A stretch of DNA of 64,000 bases from Candidatus Saccharimonadota bacterium (GTDB taxonomy: Bacteria; Patescibacteriota; Saccharimonadia; Saccharimonadales; UBA4665), in NCBI GenBank assembly GCA_029288485.1, contig JARIHC010000004.1, positions 124,001 to 188,000 on the forward strand, read 5' to 3'. Below, in pieces: positions 17,230-31,246 of this stretch. The notes below the pieces were generated by a model that was not told where the DNA came from, did no database searches, and was given only the letters and a program-made list of their open reading frames with translations. Positions within the stretch are counted from its first letter, which is position 1. Each line of letters opens with the position of its first letter. Made by a program: the position numbers and the translations under genes.

Positions 17230-17742
17230 ATGGGAAAACCTGTTTTATATCTGTTTCTTGGCTATCCTGGAGCCGGCAAAACCACCGTTGCGCAGTTAAT
17301 CGCTAAGCATACCGGAGCGGTTCATATATGGGCCGATCTAGAACGACATAAGTTATTCGATCAGCCAACACACGACGAAGCAGAAAGCCGCCAGCTTTAT
17401 GATAAGCTGAATCAAACCACTGCTCAGCTGTTATCACAGGGTAAAAGCGTCGTTTTTGACACTAATTTTAATCGTTTTGACGACCGCGAACTGCTGCGAG
17501 GTATTGCCGCCAAACATGGAGCCGAGAGCAAGCTAGTCTGGCTAACAACGCCAACCGACGTAGCCAAAGAACGTGCCGTACACGCCAACGTAGTGCGCAA
17601 TGGTTACGAGTTTAAAATGAGTGCCGAGCAGTTTAGTAAGATCGCCAGTCATCTGGAGCCGCCGCGCGAAGATGAAAAAGTAATTAAAATATCAGGTATA
17701 AAAATTGACTCTAACGAAGTTATGCAGCTACTTAGTAAGTAG
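17230..17742 (+). CDS. P-loop kinase-like ATPase (AAA_33/zeta-toxin-like fold)
   Basis: This predicted small-molecule or polynucleotide kinase-like protein has 170 residues. It has the Walker A GYPGAGKTT (residues 11-19), an early acidic/Arg strand (WADLERHKLF) and the DTNFNRFDDRE block after a hydrophobic strand (SVVFDTNF), all typical of the AAA_33 kinase group. The substrate is not predictable. TATAAT (17216-17221) lies 8 nt before the ATG. The nuclease gene follows by 1 nt. Confidence 0.75.
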   Translation: MGKPVLYLFLGYPGAGKTTVAQLIAKHTGAVHIWADLERHKLFDQPTHDEAESRQLYDKLNQTTAQLLSQGKSVVFDTNFNRFDDRELLRGIAAKHGAESKLVWLTTPTDVAKERAVHANVVRNGYEFKMSAEQFSKIASHLEPPREDEKVIKISGIKIDSNEVMQLLSK

Positions 17743-21550: not shown

Positions 21551-23359
21551 CTACTGCTGTACTCTTAAAAAGTTGGCTGATATCCCAGCGTTCGGCAAGT
21601 CTTGTTTTATTACATAAGGCTTATTCATCAGCCAAATGTCGTTGATAGTGTAGAGCGATACGGCTGCTATATCCTGATCAACAACCTTGCCAGCGCTTTG
21701 CAGCAGTTTTTGCCGCTGAGACTGGTCAGTTTCGGTGCTGGCCTGGGTTAGCAGATCAGCCAACTTAGAGCTACTGTAGTTTGCGCTGACTAGCGTGTTA
21801 GCGTAAATGTCGCCGGCATCCATAAAGTTGCTGCCGTAATCAACGACAAACATTGCATCCTGGCCGCTGTTGAAGCTGCTGACGAACTGATTAAAGTCGG
21901 CATGCTGGTCGACAGTAGCGGTTATGCCAACGCTTTTCAGTTCCTTAACAATCTCATTAGTAGCCTGCGGCGATTCGGCGGTTGAAAGAGTAAGCGGCAA
22001 GCCGTTCGAGTAACCCGCCTCTGCGAGTAGTTTTTTCGCTTTAGCTACATCTTGTTTATACGGCTTGATAGATGGATCGTAGCCGGCCAGGGTCGAAGGA
22101 ACTAATTGGCTATTAGGTGTTATTTGAGTGTTATGAGCGTTGCCAATAGACTGAGCACTCAGTGCGTAGCGGATGGCCTCGCGCACCTTTTTGTTTTGCA
22201 GCGGTCCGGTCTTAACGGTATTAAAGCCGACGTAGTAGACATCTGGCTGGCTGGTAATAAATTGTGTGGCATTGGTTTCCGCTTTGGCTTGACTGAGCGA
22301 AACTGGACCAGCGATATCATAGCTGCCGTCGTTTAGGCCGCTAATCAGAGCGTCGGAGTCGGCTGCGCTGCCAAAGTTAAGTGCTGCCGTGGTTGGCCGG
22401 CCACCGAAATAACTATTAAAAGCGGTCATTTGAACACTGGTTGCGCTTGGCGTGGTGCCAGATTTAATTTCGTAAGGACCAGTGCCGGCCTGGCTAGGTT
22501 CATCTGAAGCCGGCAAGTTATGGTCGATAACGTACAGGAATGTCAGCTTATTGAGCAGCGCCGGGTCTGGCTTGCTAGTGGTGATCTTAATCTGATTATC
22601 GCCAACGGTATCAACCGAAGCGATAGTGTCCGTAAAGGTCTGGGCTAGATCAGAGTTGCTAGCTTTGACAGCATCAAGGCTGTATTTAACATCAGCCGGT
22701 GTTAGGGTGTGGCCATCGTGAAACTTGACTCCATTTTGGATGGTAAATAACCATGTACTGCTATCTGGATTGCTCCATTTGGTAGCCAGGTCGGGGACAA
22801 TTTTGCCTTGATTTTGGTACTTAACTAGGCCGTCGAACATCTGGGCGTTGACCAGATAAGCATAGCTGCTGGTCGACATATTCGGGTAGAGGCTGCCGTA
22901 GTCAGCGTTTAGAATGCCGATGTTTAAATTGGCTACGTCGGAGTGTTTGATTGTCGTTTTGCCTGCTGACTTTTTAGCGACTAGTTTTTGATAAGCGAAC
23001 CATCCGCCTGCGGCGATTAGAATTAGGACAAGTATAAAAATTACTATTTTGAGCCAGCGTTTGCCGCCGCCGGACGGGGGAGCACTGGCTGGAGCCATAG
23101 GGCCGCCAGGCATTGGCGGAACTGGATTGCTCGGCGGCGGGCCGGCAGGCATAGGGGGCATAGAACCGCCAGAAACCACCGGACCAGGTTGCGGCATAGG
23201 ATTGCTGGGGCCGACCGGATCAGCCGGGCTAATCGGGCCGTTTGAGACATTTGGACTGCCGCTAATTATCTGTCCAGGCATTGGCGGGGCAATCGGCTCT
23301 GGCTCGGCAGGCAGTGGCTGCTGAAGTTGTTGCTGCGGCTGTTGAAAATCATCATTCAT
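21551..23359 (-). CDS. membrane-anchored family 5 solute-binding protein (peptide type), copy 1
   Basis: This 602-residue protein resembles the extracytoplasmic binding component of peptide/nickel ABC importers (SBP_bac_5). Residues 1-105 are a cytoplasmic Pro/Gln/Gly-rich tail, one membrane helix follows (IVIFILVLILIAAGGWFAYQ), and the binding domain fills the rest. Its signatures include LATKWSNPDSSTWLFTIQNGVKFHDG and SYSLDAVKAS-like blocks. It is a signal-anchored protein, not a lipoprotein (no lipobox). Copy 2 at 24871-26577 is a clear paralog, and no permease or ATPase gene is nearby. It has its own promoter. Confidence 0.9.
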   Translation of the reverse strand: MNDDFQQPQQQLQQPLPAEPEPIAPPMPGQIISGSPNVSNGPISPADPVGPSNPMPQPGPVVSGGSMPPMPAGPPPSNPVPPMPGGPMAPASAPPSGGGKRWLKIVIFILVLILIAAGGWFAYQKLVAKKSAGKTTIKHSDVANLNIGILNADYGSLYPNMSTSSYAYLVNAQMFDGLVKYQNQGKIVPDLATKWSNPDSSTWLFTIQNGVKFHDGHTLTPADVKYSLDAVKASNSDLAQTFTDTIASVDTVGDNQIKITTSKPDPALLNKLTFLYVIDHNLPASDEPSQAGTGPYEIKSGTTPSATSVQMTAFNSYFGGRPTTAALNFGSAADSDALISGLNDGSYDIAGPVSLSQAKAETNATQFITSQPDVYYVGFNTVKTGPLQNKKVREAIRYALSAQSIGNAHNTQITPNSQLVPSTLAGYDPSIKPYKQDVAKAKKLLAEAGYSNGLPLTLSTAESPQATNEIVKELKSVGITATVDQHADFNQFVSSFNSGQDAMFVVDYGSNFMDAGDIYANTLVSANYSSSKLADLLTQASTETDQSQRQKLLQSAGKVVDQDIAAVSLYTINDIWLMNKPYVIKQDLPNAGISANFLRVQQ

Positions 23360-23372
23360 AATGTATGTTTAT

Positions 23373-23406
23373 GCTAACGTTTAACTTAACCCCATAGTAG
23401 TGGCTG
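23373..23406 (-). repeat. 34-nt direct repeat, promoter copy 1
   Basis: A 34-nt block upstream of solute-binding protein copy 1 recurs exactly upstream of copy 2 (26590-26623). It covers the -10 and the 5' leader, so the genes were duplicated with their control region or are held under the same control. Confidence 0.85.
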
Positions 23407-23422
23407 CGCTGGCCGCCGTCAA
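23394..23422 (-). promoter_or_regulatory. promoter of solute-binding protein copy 1
   Basis: On the minus strand TTGACG (23417-23422) is followed after 17 nt by TACTAT (23394-23399). The leader is about 28 nt with no SD. The -10 and leader lie in the repeated block. Confidence 0.7.
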
Positions 23423-23429
23423 CTAATGC

Positions 23430-24857
23430 TTAACCGGCAGGTGCTTTCAGAGGTATACGCACGGTGAAAGCAGAGCCTCTGCCTGGTTCGCTTTCTACGC
23501 TGATCCGGCCGCCGTGCTGATCCACAACTAGCTTGGTTAAATAGAGGCCTAGCCCAACACCTTCATAATCGTATGTCAGAATATCCGTGCCGCGGTGGAA
23601 CTTAGTAAAGAGTTTGGGCGTCTCCGCAGTGGAAATGCCAATACCGCTATCAGTTACCTTAAATACCAGCTGATCAGCCTCGAGTGCGGCACCAACATCA
23701 ATTGAGCCGCCTTCTTTAGTAAACTTAATAGCATTATCTAAAATGTTACCCAGCGCAGTCCGCATGTTTGGCTCGTTAAGTTGACCGACTGAACTTGTTG
23801 GTATATCGTTTTTAAATTGCCATTTTATGCCTTTTTTCTCGGCTAAAAGTTTAAAATCGGCCGTGCTTTTATCCAAAAAGCGAGACAGTTTGACTTCAGA
23901 CTTAGTCATTATTTCGGTTCCGGACTCCAGCGTTGAAACCGTCATTAGATCCTCAGAGAGCAGGTTTAAACGGGTTACACCGTCTTGAATGCTAGTAATA
24001 ATAGCTTTTAATTCATCGACCGTTTCAGCGTCTTTGGACACTTCCAGGTAACCGCGCATGATAGTCAGCGGCGTTCGCAAATTATGAGACGCAATCATTA
24101 AGAATTCTGATTTGAGCTTATCAACTTCGCGCAGCTTAACGATGTCGGATTTTAGGGCGTCAGCCATCCGGTTGACGGCTCGTGCGAGCTTGCCTATTTC
24201 GTCTTTGTCCCTAGAAATTATTTGTTGGTTATAGTTGCCGGCACTAATAACATCTGCCGAATGGCTGACTTCGCGCAGCGGTTTTATAAATAACACATTC
24301 AGCGCCCAGCTGGCCGCTATGATGCCCAGCACCAGGGTTATAAAACCTGTATACAAAACCACCCGGACCGCATCACTAATACTATGCTCAATCCGCTTAG
24401 TAGAGATCTCGTAAACCATTGAGTACCTATGAGCGCCGGAATCCTCGAAATACGGCTCTATGACTTGGCGTACATAACCATTTTTATTGCGAATATATTG
24501 CGGATCAAACGATTCAGCTAAATTAGCCGATATAGGCTGGCTGGAGCCGCCCTGGCTGCTGTATAGTGGTTTGCCTTCTAGCGAAACAATTCGCAGGCTG
24601 GTCACATCGGGATCAAGCGCTAGATACTTGTCGACTTGTTGGGTAATTTTAATGCTGCCGGAGTCTTTATAGAGTAAAAAGGTGTTGCCGATCGGCGAGG
24701 TGGCTAACGCCGCAAACGATTTGGACTGCTGATTAAGACTGGCTTGCTGCTCGTTAATATTACGCGTCAGCGCCAAGTACATGCTCAGCACAAAAACAAC
24801 AGTAAGGAATAAGCTGACAGTAGCGATAACCTTGGCGCGCAGGTTAAGCCTTATCAT
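23430..24857 (-). CDS. membrane sensor histidine kinase
   Basis: This is a two-component sensor kinase of 475 residues. TM1 is at about 9-30, followed by an extracytoplasmic sensor region of about 130 residues, then TM2 (VVLYTGFITLVLGIIAASWAL), HAMP, HisKA with SHNLRTPLTIMRGYLE (phospho-His), and HATPase_c with N box NILDNAIKF, DSGIGIS and GVGLGLYLTK. All catalytic boxes are intact. It starts 14 nt after solute-binding protein copy 2, so the two are co-transcribed. No response regulator is adjacent. The context suggests that it reads the occupancy of one or both binding proteins. Confidence 0.95.
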   Translation of the reverse strand: MIRLNLRAKVIATVSLFLTVVFVLSMYLALTRNINEQQASLNQQSKSFAALATSPIGNTFLLYKDSGSIKITQQVDKYLALDPDVTSLRIVSLEGKPLYSSQGGSSQPISANLAESFDPQYIRNKNGYVRQVIEPYFEDSGAHRYSMVYEISTKRIEHSISDAVRVVLYTGFITLVLGIIAASWALNVLFIKPLREVSHSADVISAGNYNQQIISRDKDEIGKLARAVNRMADALKSDIVKLREVDKLKSEFLMIASHNLRTPLTIMRGYLEVSKDAETVDELKAIITSIQDGVTRLNLLSEDLMTVSTLESGTEIMTKSEVKLSRFLDKSTADFKLLAEKKGIKWQFKNDIPTSSVGQLNEPNMRTALGNILDNAIKFTKEGGSIDVGAALEADQLVFKVTDSGIGISTAETPKLFTKFHRGTDILTYDYEGVGLGLYLTKLVVDQHGGRISVESEPGRGSAFTVRIPLKAPAG

Positions 24858-24870
24858 TCTCGCAGCTTAG

Positions 24871-26577
24871 TTATGGATTATGGACTTTATAAAAGTAGAC
24901 CGGTAACGAAGCACTTGGCATGTCTTGCTTAATCACATAGTTCTTGTCCATTAGCCAAAGGTAACTTTGGGTACTAAGGGGAACAACTGCTACGTCTTTA
25001 TCCGCGATAACCGCAGCATCTTGCAGTAACTTTAAGCGCTTAGCTGGATCAACCTGGGTGTTAGCTTGGTTCAGCAGATCAGTGAACTGCTGGTTATTAT
25101 AGTTAGCAGTTGGCAAAGTGGTATTGTATATATCAACTCCATCTAGGGTATCGCTAGTGTAGTCGACGCTAAACAACTGTGCTTTTCCGGTGCTGAAATA
25201 GTTTATGAATTCGTCAAAGTCGGCGTGCGAGTCAACTGTGGCGGTGATACCGGCCTGTTTAAGTTCCTTAACAATTTCGTTGGTGCTTTTAGTAGCATCA
25301 GCCGATACAGAGAGCGTAAGAGCGAGACCGTTCGGGTAGCCAGCTTGCGCTAAAAGTTGTTTAGCTTTGTCGATGTTTTGTTTATACGGCGTAATGGCCG
25401 GGTTATAACCAGGGACCGAGGGCGGTACCATCTGACTAAGCGGCGTTACCTGGCTATCGCTGGCAGCACCGATAGCTTGAGGATTAACCGCGTAACGAAT
25501 AGCTTCTCGGACCAGTTTGTTTTGGAGCGGACTCGGGTTAACGGTATTAAAAGCTATGTAATTCACATCCGGTCCAGTGCTGGTAAAACGGAATGCCGAA
25601 GAGGATTTAGCCTGCTCGGGCGACGCGTAACCGACTATGTTATATTTGCCAGCCTGAAAATCTTTAACCATTTTGTCGGCATCAGAAACTCCGAAAAATT
25701 CCAAAGCTTTAGTTTGCGGTTGGCCATCGTGGTAGTTGTTATATGCAACCATCTGGACTTTAGTGTCAGTTGGCGCAGTGCCGGGCTTAATGAAATACGG
25801 ACCAGTGCCAGCCTGGCTCGGCTCGGCTCCTTTGGGCAAATTAGCGTCAATAACATATAAAAACGTCAGCTTGTTGAGTAGCGTCGGATCGGGGTCTTTA
25901 GTAGTAATTTTGACTTGGTCGCTACCAACTACATCAACGGAAGATATGGTATCGGCAAAGGTTTGAGCAAAGTCGGAATTGCTTGCCATAATACTGTCTA
26001 AACTATACTTGACGTCGCTTGGCGCCAATGTGTGGCCATCGTGGAACTTTACATTCTTCTTGATTGTAAAAATCCAAGTTTTGTCGTCAGGATTCTTCCA
26101 GTCGCTAGCTAAATCTGGGGCTATTTTGCTGATATTTTCGTAGCGCACCAACCCTTCGAACATCTGGGCGTTGGTGGAATAACTATAGTCGTTTACCGAC
26201 ATATCAGGGTAGAGCTTGCCAAAGTCCGCGCTATCAATACCGATTTTTAATAATGCTACGTCTTTGCTTTTTGATGTAGCAGTTGTGGCGGGCTGTTTTT
26301 TGAACCATTTTTGATAAGCAAACCAGCCGCCCACAGCCAGTAAAGCTATAACGATCAGTAAAATCAGCACCTTGAGCCACCGCCTACCGCCACCAGAACC
26401 GCCAACAGTAGCTTGCGGCGGCGGACCACCAATAGCTCCATCACTACCAGTTGTTACTGTAGAGCCGGGCAGGGGGGGAGTTATAGGTGTATTATTACCA
26501 CCGATCCCTCCAGAGGCTGGTTGATCTTCTTCCGGTTGCCCAGCAGGAGGTTGATTTGGCTTAAAGTCGCTGTCCAT
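24871..26577 (-). CDS. membrane-anchored family 5 solute-binding protein (peptide type), copy 2
   Basis: This 568-residue paralog of the protein at 21551-23359 has the same plan: a Pro/Gly-rich cytoplasmic tail (about 1-70), a membrane helix (VLILLIVIALLAVGGWFAYQKW), then an SBP_bac_5 domain (LASDWKNPDDKTWIFTIKKNVKFHDG). The frame continues upstream, but I place the start at MDSDFKPNQ (26575-26577), matching the start of copy 1 (MNDDFQQ). The upstream alternative would run through the promoter. It is co-transcribed with the histidine kinase. Confidence 0.9.
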   Translation of the reverse strand: MDSDFKPNQPPAGQPEEDQPASGGIGGNNTPITPPLPGSTVTTGSDGAIGGPPPQATVGGSGGGRRWLKVLILLIVIALLAVGGWFAYQKWFKKQPATTATSKSKDVALLKIGIDSADFGKLYPDMSVNDYSYSTNAQMFEGLVRYENISKIAPDLASDWKNPDDKTWIFTIKKNVKFHDGHTLAPSDVKYSLDSIMASNSDFAQTFADTISSVDVVGSDQVKITTKDPDPTLLNKLTFLYVIDANLPKGAEPSQAGTGPYFIKPGTAPTDTKVQMVAYNNYHDGQPQTKALEFFGVSDADKMVKDFQAGKYNIVGYASPEQAKSSSAFRFTSTGPDVNYIAFNTVNPSPLQNKLVREAIRYAVNPQAIGAASDSQVTPLSQMVPPSVPGYNPAITPYKQNIDKAKQLLAQAGYPNGLALTLSVSADATKSTNEIVKELKQAGITATVDSHADFDEFINYFSTGKAQLFSVDYTSDTLDGVDIYNTTLPTANYNNQQFTDLLNQANTQVDPAKRLKLLQDAAVIADKDVAVVPLSTQSYLWLMDKNYVIKQDMPSASLPVYFYKVHNP

Positions 26578-26589
26578 AAAGTATATTAC

Positions 26590-26623
26590 GCTAACGTTTA
26601 ACTTAACCCCATAGTAGTGGCTG
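26590..26623 (-). repeat. 34-nt direct repeat, promoter copy 2
   Basis: Exact match of the block at 23373-23406, here in front of solute-binding protein copy 2. Confidence 0.85.
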
Positions 26624-26639
26624 AGGCTGCCGCCGTCAA
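26611..26639 (-). promoter_or_regulatory. promoter of the binding protein 2 - histidine kinase operon
   Basis: On the minus strand TTGACG (26634-26639) is followed after 17 nt by TACTAT (26611-26616). This is the same geometry and hexamers as the promoter of copy 1, with a different spacer sequence in its outer half. Confidence 0.7.
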
Positions 26640-26699
26640 CCATACGCCCGCATGTTTACAGATTGGACGGAAGTCTATAGAATAGTTTGGTACTGATAT

Positions 26700-26774
26700 T
26701 CCGGGGTAGCTCAGCGGTAGAGCGGGTGGCTGTTAACCACTAGGTCGCTGGTTCGAATCCAGTCCCCGGAGCCA
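26700..26774 (+). tRNA. tRNA-Asn (GTT)
   Basis: A complete cloverleaf is present: acceptor TCCGGGG/CCCCGGA, D arm GCTC-AGCGGTA-GAGC, anticodon arm with loop CTGTTAA (anticodon GTT), T arm with TTCGAAT, discriminator G and encoded CCA. The 3' half overlaps the end of the recombinase gene on the other strand, which marks it as a probable integration site. Confidence 0.97.
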
Positions 26775-28211
26775 ATTTCCATTTTCGGAGCAAAAAGCCA
26801 TTGTATCGAATGGTTTTTTTAATTCCCACCCCAGTTCTTTGCCCTTGAGTTGCAAGTTCGAAAGTACGAGATTGATTAATGAGCGTTTCTGCTCATTATT
26901 AGCCCTTTTAAACAACTCAGGAGTCTTTTTAGCTAGTGATAACAGGTGATTAACGGTAGCGAAGTAGTCGTCTTCAACCTGTTCGACATTCAAGCGTTTA
27001 TTTTGTAGCGTCTTTTGGGCGTTACGATACTGTTCAAACTTACGTTTATAGAGCAGCTCAGGAATGGTCTCGTCAAGATAGTCTTCGTACACCTTATCCA
27101 TACGTTTCTGATACTTCTCGATCTCTGTGTCGAGCGTTCCCAGGGCTTTAGCACGTAGCGTCTTTTTGTCTTCTTGCGCGGTCCTGAGGGCCATGCTGAC
27201 CTCCTGGTAGGCCACCTCGGGCACCTGTATGCTCTTAAAGACATTCATGAGTTGGTTGGTCAGGAGGTCTTCATTGATGTACTGTGCACCATGTTTGCCG
27301 CGGTATTGAGTACAGTGGCCATAGATATATTTACCTTTCTTCTTCTCAAAGGTAATACGACAACCACAGTCGGCACATGTAATTAAGCCTCTGTAGGCGT
27401 AGGGTAGACCACCCCATCTATGTGGCTTAGCCTTGTAACCCCGCCTTACAGCTTCGGCCTGTTTATATAGTTCTAGTCCAATAACGGTATCGTATTTGTG
27501 CGGGTAGAGCTTACCCTTGACCAGCATTTCTCCGCAATAAAAGGGGTTTTTGAGCACTTTATCAAGCTGGCTAGTGCCTAGTTCTAAAGTAAATTCTGCC
27601 CTCAATTTTTCTTTAATTATTTTTAATGAATAGTTGCCAGACGCATACCATTCAAATGCAGATCTAACAGCTTCAGCCTTAAGAGCGTCTATCTCAACCC
27701 ATTTCTTCCCGTTAGGTAAATCAACATTTTTGTAACCCAAAGGTGCTTGACCTATCCACTCACCATCTCTCAACTTCTGCTCAAAACGACGTCTAACGTT
27801 ATCGCTGATGGCGTCAGAATAATATTGCGACAACACCTCACCTAACCCAAGTCTCATAAGATCAGTAGCAGGTGAGTTTTGTGTTATTACTAAACCTTCA
27901 GACGGGAAGTGTAGTTCAATCTTGCCAGCTTTACACAGCTTTCTTAATACTTTCACCTCATCAGACGCAGAATCCCGTGTATACCGATCAATCTTGTCGA
28001 ACACCACGGCCGCGCTTTCCTCAGAATCATTAATTAACTTGATTACGGCCTTAAACTTATTGCGGTCTCCTTTGTATGCGCTTTCGCTTAACTCAATCAA
28101 CTCACAATCAAACCCTTTTCGCTTTGCATAATCCTTAAGCCTGTAAATCTGCGCTGGTAGTGCATCCTTCTGATCTTCGGTTGAAACTCGTGCTATAAGA
28201 TATGCTTTCAT
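26733..28211 (-). CDS. large serine recombinase (site-specific integrase)
   Basis: This 492-residue serine recombinase/resolvase-family integrase has the N-terminal catalytic domain AYLIARVSTEDQ (nucleophile Ser about 10), the Recombinase domain (APLGYKN...) and the zinc ribbon LITCADCGCRITF...YGHC, then a long coiled coil (about 340-440). The last 13-14 codons and the stop lie inside tRNA-Asn read antisense (ending LRGLDSNQRPSG), so the C-terminus is supplied by the tRNA gene. The start is taken at ATG 28209-28211; a GTG 9 nt earlier is possible. It is the last gene of a three-gene operon. Confidence 0.93.
   Translation of the reverse strand: MKAYLIARVSTEDQKDALPAQIYRLKDYAKRKGFDCELIELSESAYKGDRNKFKAVIKLINDSEESAAVVFDKIDRYTRDSASDEVKVLRKLCKAGKIELHFPSEGLVITQNSPATDLMRLGLGEVLSQYYSDAISDNVRRRFEQKLRDGEWIGQAPLGYKNVDLPNGKKWVEIDALKAEAVRSAFEWYASGNYSLKIIKEKLRAEFTLELGTSQLDKVLKNPFYCGEMLVKGKLYPHKYDTVIGLELYKQAEAVRRGYKAKPHRWGGLPYAYRGLITCADCGCRITFEKKKGKYIYGHCTQYRGKHGAQYINEDLLTNQLMNVFKSIQVPEVAYQEVSMALRTAQEDKKTLRAKALGTLDTEIEKYQKRMDKVYEDYLDETIPELLYKRKFEQYRNAQKTLQNKRLNVEQVEDDYFATVNHLLSLAKKTPELFKRANNEQKRSLINLVLSNLQLKGKELGWELKKPFDTMAFCSENGNWLRGLDSNQRPSG
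26768..26775. other. candidate attachment site (left)
   Basis: GGAGCCAA spans the tRNA 3' end including the encoded CCA. The same 8 bp occur at 32039-32046, just before the first gene that looks chromosomal. This would make an element of about 5.27 kb. An 8-bp match in 5 kb is expected by chance roughly 1 time in 13, so this is only suggestive. Confidence 0.3.
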
Positions 28212-28219
28212 ATATCTCA

Positions 28220-28612
28220 CTACCTCACCGATCCATCTCGTCGATTTCTATAAGAATACGAAAGAACTCTATCAGTTGAGCTAACCCCGGGGTTTCCTCT
28301 CTGCGATCTTTCTTCTTGACGGGCTCTGGCATGACGTTCGTATGTACTCGCCGACACCAAAAAACCTGGCACGGCAAATACAAATCCTTGATGATTAATA
28401 TTTGCTGTACCAGGTTCAGGGGCTTCTATCTCCCAGAGCTGATAACCATGCAATGCACGGGTTAAGTAAAACTGTGTCTGATCCTCATCTAACAGTGGAG
28501 TGCTCCCCAGAAAGGAGGAGCCTGTTTGTTGCCGGACCAGGTTCCCTTTACTGTGCATCGATTCTACTACGCTTATGTTTGACATGTCAATGATAAGCTT
28601 TTCGTATATCAT
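28220..28612 (-). CDS. hypothetical protein of the recombinase operon
   Basis: This 130-residue soluble protein has no recognised family. It ends with a basic, Arg-rich segment (RHARARQEERSQRGN...YRNRRDG), suggesting nucleic acid binding. The start overlaps the upstream stop (ATGA), and the stop lies 8 nt before the recombinase ATG, so translation is coupled. It could be a directionality or accessory factor, but nothing in the sequence proves this. Confidence 0.65.
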   Translation of the reverse strand: MIYEKLIIDMSNISVVESMHSKGNLVRQQTGSSFLGSTPLLDEDQTQFYLTRALHGYQLWEIEAPEPGTANINHQGFVFAVPGFLVSASTYERHARARQEERSQRGNPGVSSTDRVLSYSYRNRRDGSVR

Positions 28613-29040
28613 TCCGAATTTTCCCCTGACATAATCTGACGATTAAGTTTGTTCATTTTTGTACCCCAACGCTGGCGTTCCTTGATTAATTCGCCTATGT
28701 GATAAGTATCGCGCTTCTGCTGCGCGTCACTGTATTCAACATCGCCGCTTTCATTATTTTTAAGTTTAGCTACGTATTCCATCTCTGCGGAAACGGAATT
28801 GATCATAGCGTCAAGCATACCTATTGTGGTTTTGGTAAAGTCAGAATTGGCATGTGCACTGATACTACTGGCCACAACGAGAAGATCCTTAAGAAGTTTT
28901 TGGTGTTCCTTGATGAGGCGACCATAAGTTTCTTTTGAAGGCTCTATATCTTCAAGCGCAATAATACGCTTAAAAAGCCCGGTGATATGAACCATAATTT
29001 TCACCTGTATCTCATTGTTGTTAATGTCGAAGTCAGTCAT
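28609..29040 (-). CDS. hypothetical helical protein, first gene of the recombinase operon
   Basis: This 143-residue, mostly alpha-helical charged protein (LLKDLLVVASSISAHANSD... then a long Glu/Lys/Gln/Arg helix) has no recognised family. An ATG 18 nt further up is open, but the GGAG SD lies 9 nt before the ATG at 29038-29040 (MTDFDINN), which I prefer. It overlaps the next gene by 4 nt. Confidence 0.65.
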   Translation of the reverse strand: MTDFDINNNEIQVKIMVHITGLFKRIIALEDIEPSKETYGRLIKEHQKLLKDLLVVASSISAHANSDFTKTTIGMLDAMINSVSAEMEYVAKLKNNESGDVEYSDAQQKRDTYHIGELIKERQRWGTKMNKLNRQIMSGENSE

Positions 29041-29605
29041 TCTGAAGATCTCCATCAAAGTTATTTAGTAATTCCTGACGACAACTAAAAAGCTCGCCGC
29101 CAGTGATAGCCGAAGCTACCTACAGACCTTTCGGAATGTAACTACATGGAAATAGTGCTCTGACGACGAGCTTATTATTTCCATGCAGTTTTGATGATCA
29201 TACCTTCGCTCGCGCGTGGCTTTAGATCGAGGCTGCAAAAGTAGCTTATATATTATTATAACAGAGGTGAAGATGTTTTTTCGTAGTATATACAAAAAGC
29301 CAGCTCCAGCGGTACCGTAGGCGTTGCGATATTAGCTATAGGTAGTAGTTTTTACTACGTTGAAAGTTATCACCTAAGCCGGGCGCGACAATGCATGTCC
29401 CTCTGTTAAGAGTGTATATTTCTCTATTAAAAGTTGTTGACACAAATAATTATTCTGTGAGCACTACAACAGCAAATTTAATAAATAGTTAATTATTTTA
29501 ATATAAGGTTTAGGGGGCTCTTACTCTAGATCAGAATTAAGAGTACTTATCTGACAAACGAGTAGAAAAAGAGGTACACTTACATAAAAGTGGGGTTTTG
29601 CAAAA
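29041..29605. other. 565-nt intergenic region inside the putative element
   Basis: No convincing gene is present. It holds an imperfect long hairpin (29145-29185), a small hairpin GTAGT-TTTT-ACTAC (29345-29358), several AT-rich stretches, and a candidate promoter for the downstream ATPase (CTGACA 29551-29556, 18 nt, TACACT 29575-29580). It separates the two divergent halves of the element, so it probably carries both promoters. Confidence 0.5.
29145..29185. repeat. interrupted inverted repeat / hairpin
   Basis: CATGGAAATA (29145-29154) pairs with TATTTCCATG (29176-29185). Inside it GCTC (29157-29160) pairs with GAGC (29168-29171) around a 7-nt loop. It could be a protein-binding palindrome or a folded RNA. 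Confidence 0.6.
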
Positions 29606-31246
29606 ATGTTTATAAAATCAATTACGGTCAGCAACTATCGCTCGTTAAAGAATGATAACTATACTCTCGACTTTGCGATTCCTAACGGCAAGCCGGGGAG
29701 TGGACTTACTGTCGTTGTGGGGCCAAATAACGTAGGTAAGTCGAACCTGTTTCATGCAATGGACTTTGTGTTCAATAAAACTGGCACGGAGAATGTGAAG
29801 CACAAACAAAGACCCGAAGCTGATGCTATTGTACAGCTAGAATTTCAAGATAAAGACATTGAAAGTTCAATTGATGAGTACGTGCAAGAAAACAAAAAAG
29901 AGGCTTTTAAGAAATTGGTCTACATAAAAGATAGCAATAAGACATTTTCTATTCAGCGCATATACGATACTAAAGCTCAATATATAAACATATGGCACGA
30001 AAAAGATTCGAGTTTCAAAAATGTTGCTGGTATAGACGGTCCTATTGAAGCATGGTTAACTTTCTTGCCTTTGTGGGCTAATACCAGCACAGAAGAAGTC
30101 GCTACTTACAGCGCTAAGAGTATCATTAATAAGCTCTTGGGAAAGATCGTCGAGGAAATTCAAAGCGATAAGGGCTACATTGACTTACATAAACAATTTG
30201 AAAAGATATTTGGTGGCGATGAGAAATCTGTTTTGGGCAGCAAAACATCAACTATATCTAACGAGGTCTCAACACTTATACACGAACAGTTTGCCGATGT
30301 TGGTATTAAGTTTCAGGCTGATCCGCCAAAAATTGACCAATATATTAAGCAGATTCGCACTCTTGTGCATGATGGCGACGAAACCGAAATCACAGAAAAG
30401 GGAAACGGACTTCAACGGGCAATTATGATTGCCCTTATTCAGGTGTATGCAAAATCGCTCAACAAAGGTAAGTCAAAGAAGCCTTTTTTTCTGTTTATTG
30501 ATGAGCCCGAACTTTACCTAAATCCTCAGTCTCAGAAAATACTCTTAAAATCTCTTCGAAAAATTGCTGCAAATGAGCAAGTCTTCTTAGTTACTCATTC
30601 TCCGTACTTTGTCGGCTGGAAAGACTATACAAACGGAGCAAAAGTTGGTCGCGCTAAAAAGGAAAGCGAGTCAACGATTATTAATTGCTTAAATCCAAGT
30701 ACCGATTATTCATCACTAATCTCTAATGACGTTCAAGAATGGCAGAGACCATATATACTCGATACAACCGCTAAAGAGCTTTTATTTGCCGATAAGGTTC
30801 TTTTTCTGGAGGGACAAGAAGATGTAGGCCTAACCAAAAAATGGCTGTCCGAAACATCGAAAGAAATCAAATTTGACCTATTTGGTTATGGCGTTGGTGG
30901 ATTCGGCAATTACTCCGCATATTTGAAGCTTGCGAAGGATCTTGGCCTAACAAAGGCGGCTGCAATTTACGATAATGGAACAAACGAAAAAGCTAAGATG
31001 GATTCCGATAAAAAAATTCAGCCAGACTATTTACTTTGCCAGCTAGATGCCAATGACATACGCGACAAACTTAGACCTTGCTACAAATGCACTAAATGTA
31101 AGGCGCAAAAATACAATGAGTGCAGCGCAAAAACCAAATATAAAACAGGTTGCTTTGATGAGAGCGGGAACCCTAAAACCGCTAGTTTAGAATATAAAGA
31201 TTTCTGTGCTAAATTCGAGTCAATTATTACGTATATGGAGAAGTGA
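29606..31246 (+). CDS. OLD-family ATP-dependent nuclease (AAA ATPase + TOPRIM-like domain)
   Basis: This 546-residue protein has an SMC/RecF-like ABC ATPase: P-loop GPNNVGKSN (about 40), signature GNGLQRAIMIAL, Walker B FFLFIDEPELYLNPQSQ and H-loop VTHSPYF. A TOPRIM-like part follows (VLFLEGQEDVGL with the first Glu; AAIYDNG for the later acidic strand). The C-terminus has a Cys-rich run (CYKCTKCKAQKYNEC...GCF), which may bind metal and is not standard for the family. Single-gene OLD proteins act in DNA processing and phage exclusion. No GajB-like helicase is adjacent, so it is not a Gabija pair. Location in a putative element makes a defence role likely. Confidence 0.85.
   Translation: MFIKSITVSNYRSLKNDNYTLDFAIPNGKPGSGLTVVVGPNNVGKSNLFHAMDFVFNKTGTENVKHKQRPEADAIVQLEFQDKDIESSIDEYVQENKKEAFKKLVYIKDSNKTFSIQRIYDTKAQYINIWHEKDSSFKNVAGIDGPIEAWLTFLPLWANTSTEEVATYSAKSIINKLLGKIVEEIQSDKGYIDLHKQFEKIFGGDEKSVLGSKTSTISNEVSTLIHEQFADVGIKFQADPPKIDQYIKQIRTLVHDGDETEITEKGNGLQRAIMIALIQVYAKSLNKGKSKKPFFLFIDEPELYLNPQSQKILLKSLRKIAANEQVFLVTHSPYFVGWKDYTNGAKVGRAKKESESTIINCLNPSTDYSSLISNDVQEWQRPYILDTTAKELLFADKVLFLEGQEDVGLTKKWLSETSKEIKFDLFGYGVGGFGNYSAYLKLAKDLGLTKAAAIYDNGTNEKAKMDSDKKIQPDYLLCQLDANDIRDKLRPCYKCTKCKAQKYNECSAKTKYKTGCFDESGNPKTASLEYKDFCAKFESIITYMEK

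Follow-up and report, generated by a model that had tools for sequence, protein, structure and literature searches.

Two neighbouring genes of a Candidatus Saccharimonadota bacterium, encoding a membrane-anchored solute-binding protein (SBP1) and a sensor histidine kinase, probably constitute a dedicated two-gene co-receptor for a molecule outside the cell and not part of a transporter, a reading to which a probability of roughly 0.7 is assigned. The genes lie within a window of 64,000 nucleotides, the whole stretch of DNA that was analysed. Sensing instead of transport had been proposed in a first-pass annotation made from the sequence alone and is now well supported: the signalling reading is favoured because a cognate permease is absent from the genome and from nearly all relatives, and because SBP and kinase show near-strict co-occurrence and conserved adjacency.

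The cluster (21551-26577) is transcribed from the minus strand in the order SBP1, kinase, SBP2, so that two SBPs of the SBP_bac_5 family flank a complete class-I histidine kinase, as the first-pass annotation had described. SBP1 (24871..26577, 568 aa) consists of a tail (residues 1-69), a helix (70-88) and a binding domain from residue ~110. An open reading frame start at 26643 would enclose the promoter repeat within SBP1, and the start giving MDSDF was therefore preferred. Only 13 bp separate the SBP1 stop from the start of the kinase gene (23430..24857, minus strand, 475 aa), a spacing consistent with a single transcript for the two. SBP2 (21551..23359, minus strand, 602 aa), a paralogue of SBP1 with a tail at residues 1-104 and a helix at 105-123, shares 57% identity with it across 507 aa. 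Both SBP genes are preceded by a 55-nt repeat carrying TTGACG-17-TACTAT, one copy upstream of SBP1-kinase (26586..26640, minus strand) and the other upstream of SBP2 (23369..23423, minus strand). The repeat had been called identical in the first-pass annotation; it is indeed shared, but the copies are only near-identical, at 91%. The SBP identity together with the repeated promoter suggests that an SBP gene was duplicated along with its promoter.

On one side the cluster is flanked by genes for a glycosyltransferase, a glycosidase-like protein, a methyltransferase and smpB, and on the other by a tRNA-Asn with a serine recombinase. No permease, ABC ATPase or response regulator was present among its nearest neighbours, in agreement with the first-pass annotation. 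A small AAA/zeta-toxin-like kinase (PF13671, PF06414) is encoded near the cluster at 17230-17742, in a neighbour order common to the closest relative (G088). On the tRNA side, the large serine recombinase gene (26733-28220) overlaps the tRNA-Asn 3' end, and an OLD-like AAA/TOPRIM protein is encoded beyond it (29606-31246). The region 26700-31246 resembles an integrated element; a repeat of the tRNA-Asn 3' end was not found within the window.

The kinase contains HAMP, HisKA and HATPase_c domains with the H, N and G boxes intact, as in class-I sensor histidine kinases, and residues H258, N375, D403 and G405 are invariant across its members. Hydropathy indicates two helices (TM1 10-28 and TM2 173-191 in the window kinase) enclosing an extracytoplasmic sensor domain of 128-144 residues across members and ~144 aa in the window kinase. 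A match to dCache_1 was obtained for one of ten members and was weak (E 0.0028), and no PDB match was found for the sensor domain. AlphaFold models built from one or two input sequences (the kinase alone, or SBP1 with SBP2) had a pLDDT of 39 and were unusable.

Both SBPs match PF00496 (SBP_bac_5) with E ~1e-57, scoring 195 bits (SBP1) and 194.5 bits (SBP2) over a cut-off of 32.4 and covering positions 1-367 of the 368 in the profile. Each has a single helix by hydropathy, which upholds the earlier description of both as anchored in the membrane, and the tails preceding these helices are Pro-rich as described (17% Pro over 69 residues in SBP1, 30% over 104 in SBP2). Lys and Arg within 15 residues of the SBP helix average 3.6 on the tail side against 2.5 on the other, which agrees with a tail predicted to lie inside and a binding domain outside, although the bias is ambiguous in the window's own SBPs (3 vs 4 and 3 vs 5). 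Cysteine is wholly absent from 11 of the 14 SBPs of the family, and these 11 therefore cannot be lipoproteins. Anchoring by a helix also occurs in a second, widespread SBP type of these organisms that lies outside the pair.

The first-pass annotation had given the cytoplasmic tail a part in signalling, and a tail that relays the signal to a cytoplasmic partner would fit its presence on all 14 SBPs of the family, where it is always hydrophilic and spans 30-141 residues with 8-32% Pro. Of roughly 96 other proteins with a single helix encoded at the sampled loci, only 4 have such a low-complexity tail, a rarity suggesting that having a tail may matter, for example as a spacer or for localisation. 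The 14 tails nevertheless share no motif, and neither their length nor their Pro content is conserved, so a signalling role for them is unsupported and was rejected; a spacer or localisation role would account for the tail equally well, and relay through it is considered quite improbable.

If the SBPs served ordinary ABC import, their permease and ATPase would have to be too divergent to detect or missing from the assembly, which at 912 kb in 9 contigs and 97% completeness leaves a little room for such a loss. The BPD-type permease model (PF00528) found no match anywhere in the genome. This model gave a match in all 14 control genomes and in two of the 99 relatives (G019 and G070), neither of which carries this SBP type. 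Nor does the permease occur in any of the nine further genomes of the 99 that carry the pair, seven of which are more than 90% complete and one of which is a single contig (G093). The OppD/F-type ATPase (PF08352, oligo_HPY) was also absent, with no match in 60 genomes, the window's own included. Ordinary import is thus strongly disfavoured and held to be very improbable. The first-pass annotation had named oligopeptide permease genes that track the SBPs and not the kinase as the pattern contrary to sensing; within the reach of PF00528 and PF08352 this pattern is excluded, and the opposite is seen.

The second SBP_bac_5 type is a protein of ~590 aa that carries a basic tail at its N-terminus and is anchored by one helix. 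It is present in most relatives (L025-L044) and likewise occurs without any permease. An SBP relative of any kind was found in 68 of the 99 genomes, 58 of which are without the pair. The copy of the second type in the window's own genome lies downstream of an aminopeptidase-like gene (L003 1123-2904, contig C6). The frame RRQRQMCIRDR, with which contig C1 begins (L004 1-60), resembles a translated Nextera mosaic-end adapter, an artefact of assembly at this end of the contig; beside it is a second, partial copy of the widespread SBP type.

The distribution of the two genes links the SBP to the kinase. With a cut-off of E < 1e-60 for both, orthologues of the SBP subfamily and of the full-length kinase were found in an identical set of 10 of the 99 relatives. 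When 393 genomes were drawn evenly from the class, full-length kinases (at least 455 bits; the next best cover the kinase core only, with at most 273 bits) occurred in 11 genomes and full-length SBPs (at least 435 bits; the next best 159) in 10. Both were present in 10 genomes, the kinase only in one and the SBP only in none; the corresponding Fisher p of 5e-19 is uncorrected for relatedness and is to be read with care because the genomes are related. The pair-bearing genomes span 12 genera and six families. The order SBP then kinase, on the same strand and with a gap of 0-59 bp, recurs in 11 genomes drawn from six families. Two genomes that had been left out of the family definition, G294 and G312, have the SBP directly upstream of the kinase. 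Sequence divergence of the SBP is correlated with that of the kinase (r 0.67, Mantel p 2e-4). No other gene family recurred widely beside the pair among the neighbourhoods compared.

Two exceptions, G401 and G046, mean that the link is not absolute. In G401 the kinase is divergent and an SBP was not detected, and in G046 the two genes are split between contigs. The G046 kinase has a transposase-like fragment immediately before it (L259 1-414), which suggests that this pair was disrupted by an insertion element. In a draw across the phylum, full-length matches were restricted to G000, G093 and G614. The last of these belongs to another class, and its contig opens with a fragment similar to the C-terminal end of an SBP (weak, 5 bits) followed by a full-length kinase relative.

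Conservation extends to the pair and not to the trio that the first-pass annotation had wished to see checked. The closest relative, G088, which alone shares the smpB-side neighbours of the window, carries only one SBP of this kind next to its kinase. SBP2 is peculiar to the window genome and looks like a lineage-specific duplicate.

Regulators were also compared. The window genome encodes 10 response regulators, all away from the cluster, and none adjoined the pair in the ten genomes checked, where the nearest was ~5 kb away, in one genome. When the 71 regulators of ten pair-bearing genomes were clustered, several orphan single-domain receivers proved common to nearly all ten. The single receiver group that was tested is present in 85 of the 99 relatives irrespective of the pair, and this receiver is therefore core and not dedicated. 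A dedicated regulator among the broadly shared groups was accordingly rejected, as these groups look core.

The element TTAAGCRTAA, allowing up to one mismatch, was found within 60 bp upstream of 10 of the 14 SBP genes, compared with 11 of the 399 other genes; it was scored on the same SBP upstream sequences from which the pattern had been derived. In an 8-mer test that presupposed no pattern, none of 200 random gene sets (of 12) scored as high. The match in the window's own repeat is poorer, with 2 mismatches. In several genomes, sites resembling TTAAGCRTAA also lie close to a core PAS-kinase/long-regulator locus; a link between the element and this locus is a lead only, being post hoc and drawn against a background sample rich in regulator genes. 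The regulator concerned (L099 4162-5715, with orthologues in ten genomes) is a core protein of ~290-590 aa in total, comprising a receiver and a long C-terminal part that gave no Pfam match in the three scanned; a PAS kinase is adjacent in both of the two loci scanned for it.

Co-occurrence of SBP and kinase could also mean shared regulation instead of docking. The kinase might sense a signal of its own and merely regulate the SBP, which would scavenge its ligand or pass it to a non-ABC carrier. The kinase does possess its own sensor domain, and the shared element upstream of the SBP genes is compatible with feedback control. However, an importer of the cognate type is absent, the SBP gene leads the operon, and no genome was found to have the SBP without the kinase, making this arrangement unlikely. 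In the co-receptor reading, SBP1 would be tethered on the outer face of the membrane and bind a small ligand. It would then dock onto the extracytoplasmic sensor domain of the kinase and change autophosphorylation, both the docking and its gating by ligand being proposed from sequence and gene content. Phosphate would presumably pass to a response regulator encoded elsewhere, possibly a core orphan CheY-like receiver. SBP2, apparently a lineage-specific duplicate under a copied promoter, would probably serve the same kinase as a variant for a second ligand.

The nearest solved relatives of the SBPs by sequence are varied and include AgaA, a peptide-type SBP, the heme-binding HbpA and DppA. In DppA, the amino end of the peptide is bound by the Asp D408, and R355 is a further peptide-contact residue. 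The D408 column holds Asp in 9 of the 14 SBPs (D476 in SBP1) and Asn in SBP2; should this position be important, the two SBPs of the window would differ in what they bind. The DppA loop with R355 is absent from these SBPs, where it aligns to gaps. The peptide and host sensing put forward in the first-pass annotation is possible but not supported; a peptide ligand is plausible, a guess given somewhat less than even odds. SBP1 thus resembles SBPs of DppA/OppA-type importers in its SBP_bac_5 domain and in keeping the D408 equivalent. It differs from them, as does SBP2, in that no permease or ATPase is present in the genome, a helix anchor replaces the cleaved signal peptide or lipidation, and the Arg355 loop is missing. 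The defining features of a Dpp/Opp importer, a BPD permease and an oligo_HPY ATPase, are lacking.

As in three-component systems, the SBP is adjacent to and co-inherited with the kinase; a regulator is not in the cluster. The CBP of Vibrio cholerae belongs to the SBP_bac_5 family. In the CBP-ChiS system, a periplasmic binding protein controls a HAMP-bearing membrane sensor kinase, as is proposed for the window pair; unlike in that pair, CBP has a role in transport as well, and ChiS, a hybrid kinase, itself binds DNA (PMC10208484). In the three-component system CuaD-CuaS-CuaR of Ruminiclostridium cellulolyticum, CuaD binds CuaS, and a dedicated signalling SBP is encoded beside a membrane sensor kinase, as in the window (PMC10384115). 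There, the cellobiose-binding lipoprotein CuaD shares its operon with the regulator, and what is controlled is an ABC importer (PMC10384115); the SBP of the window, by contrast, is a helix-anchored SBP_bac_5 protein with no neighbouring regulator and no importer. In XylFII-LytS of Clostridium beijerinckii, as cited in PMC9769921, an SBP sits on the extracytoplasmic domain of the sensor kinase, as is proposed for the window pair, in a complex that has been solved; that SBP is a sugar-binding protein of another family, paired with a LytS-type kinase and with a transporter to regulate. By analogy, the window pair would work like these SBP-kinase systems, with a helix anchor and without a cognate importer or a clustered regulator. 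No description of this SBP-kinase pair was found in the open-licence literature.

SBP-assisted kinases are already known, and the described cases that were found regulate or share an importer. A pair kept over several families in an importer-less clade would be a clean case of an SBP retained for sensing alone. A broader scenario is rather doubtful: in this small-genome, probably epibiotic lineage, SBPs of a peptide-importer family might have lost all link to transport and become membrane-tethered subunits of receptors, in which duplicate SBPs would each report a different ligand, possibly a host-cell peptide, to one kinase. The same question arises more broadly for the other anchored SBP type, which is widespread and shares these permease-less genomes, and the pair would offer a tractable entry to what these presumably host-dependent bacteria sense.
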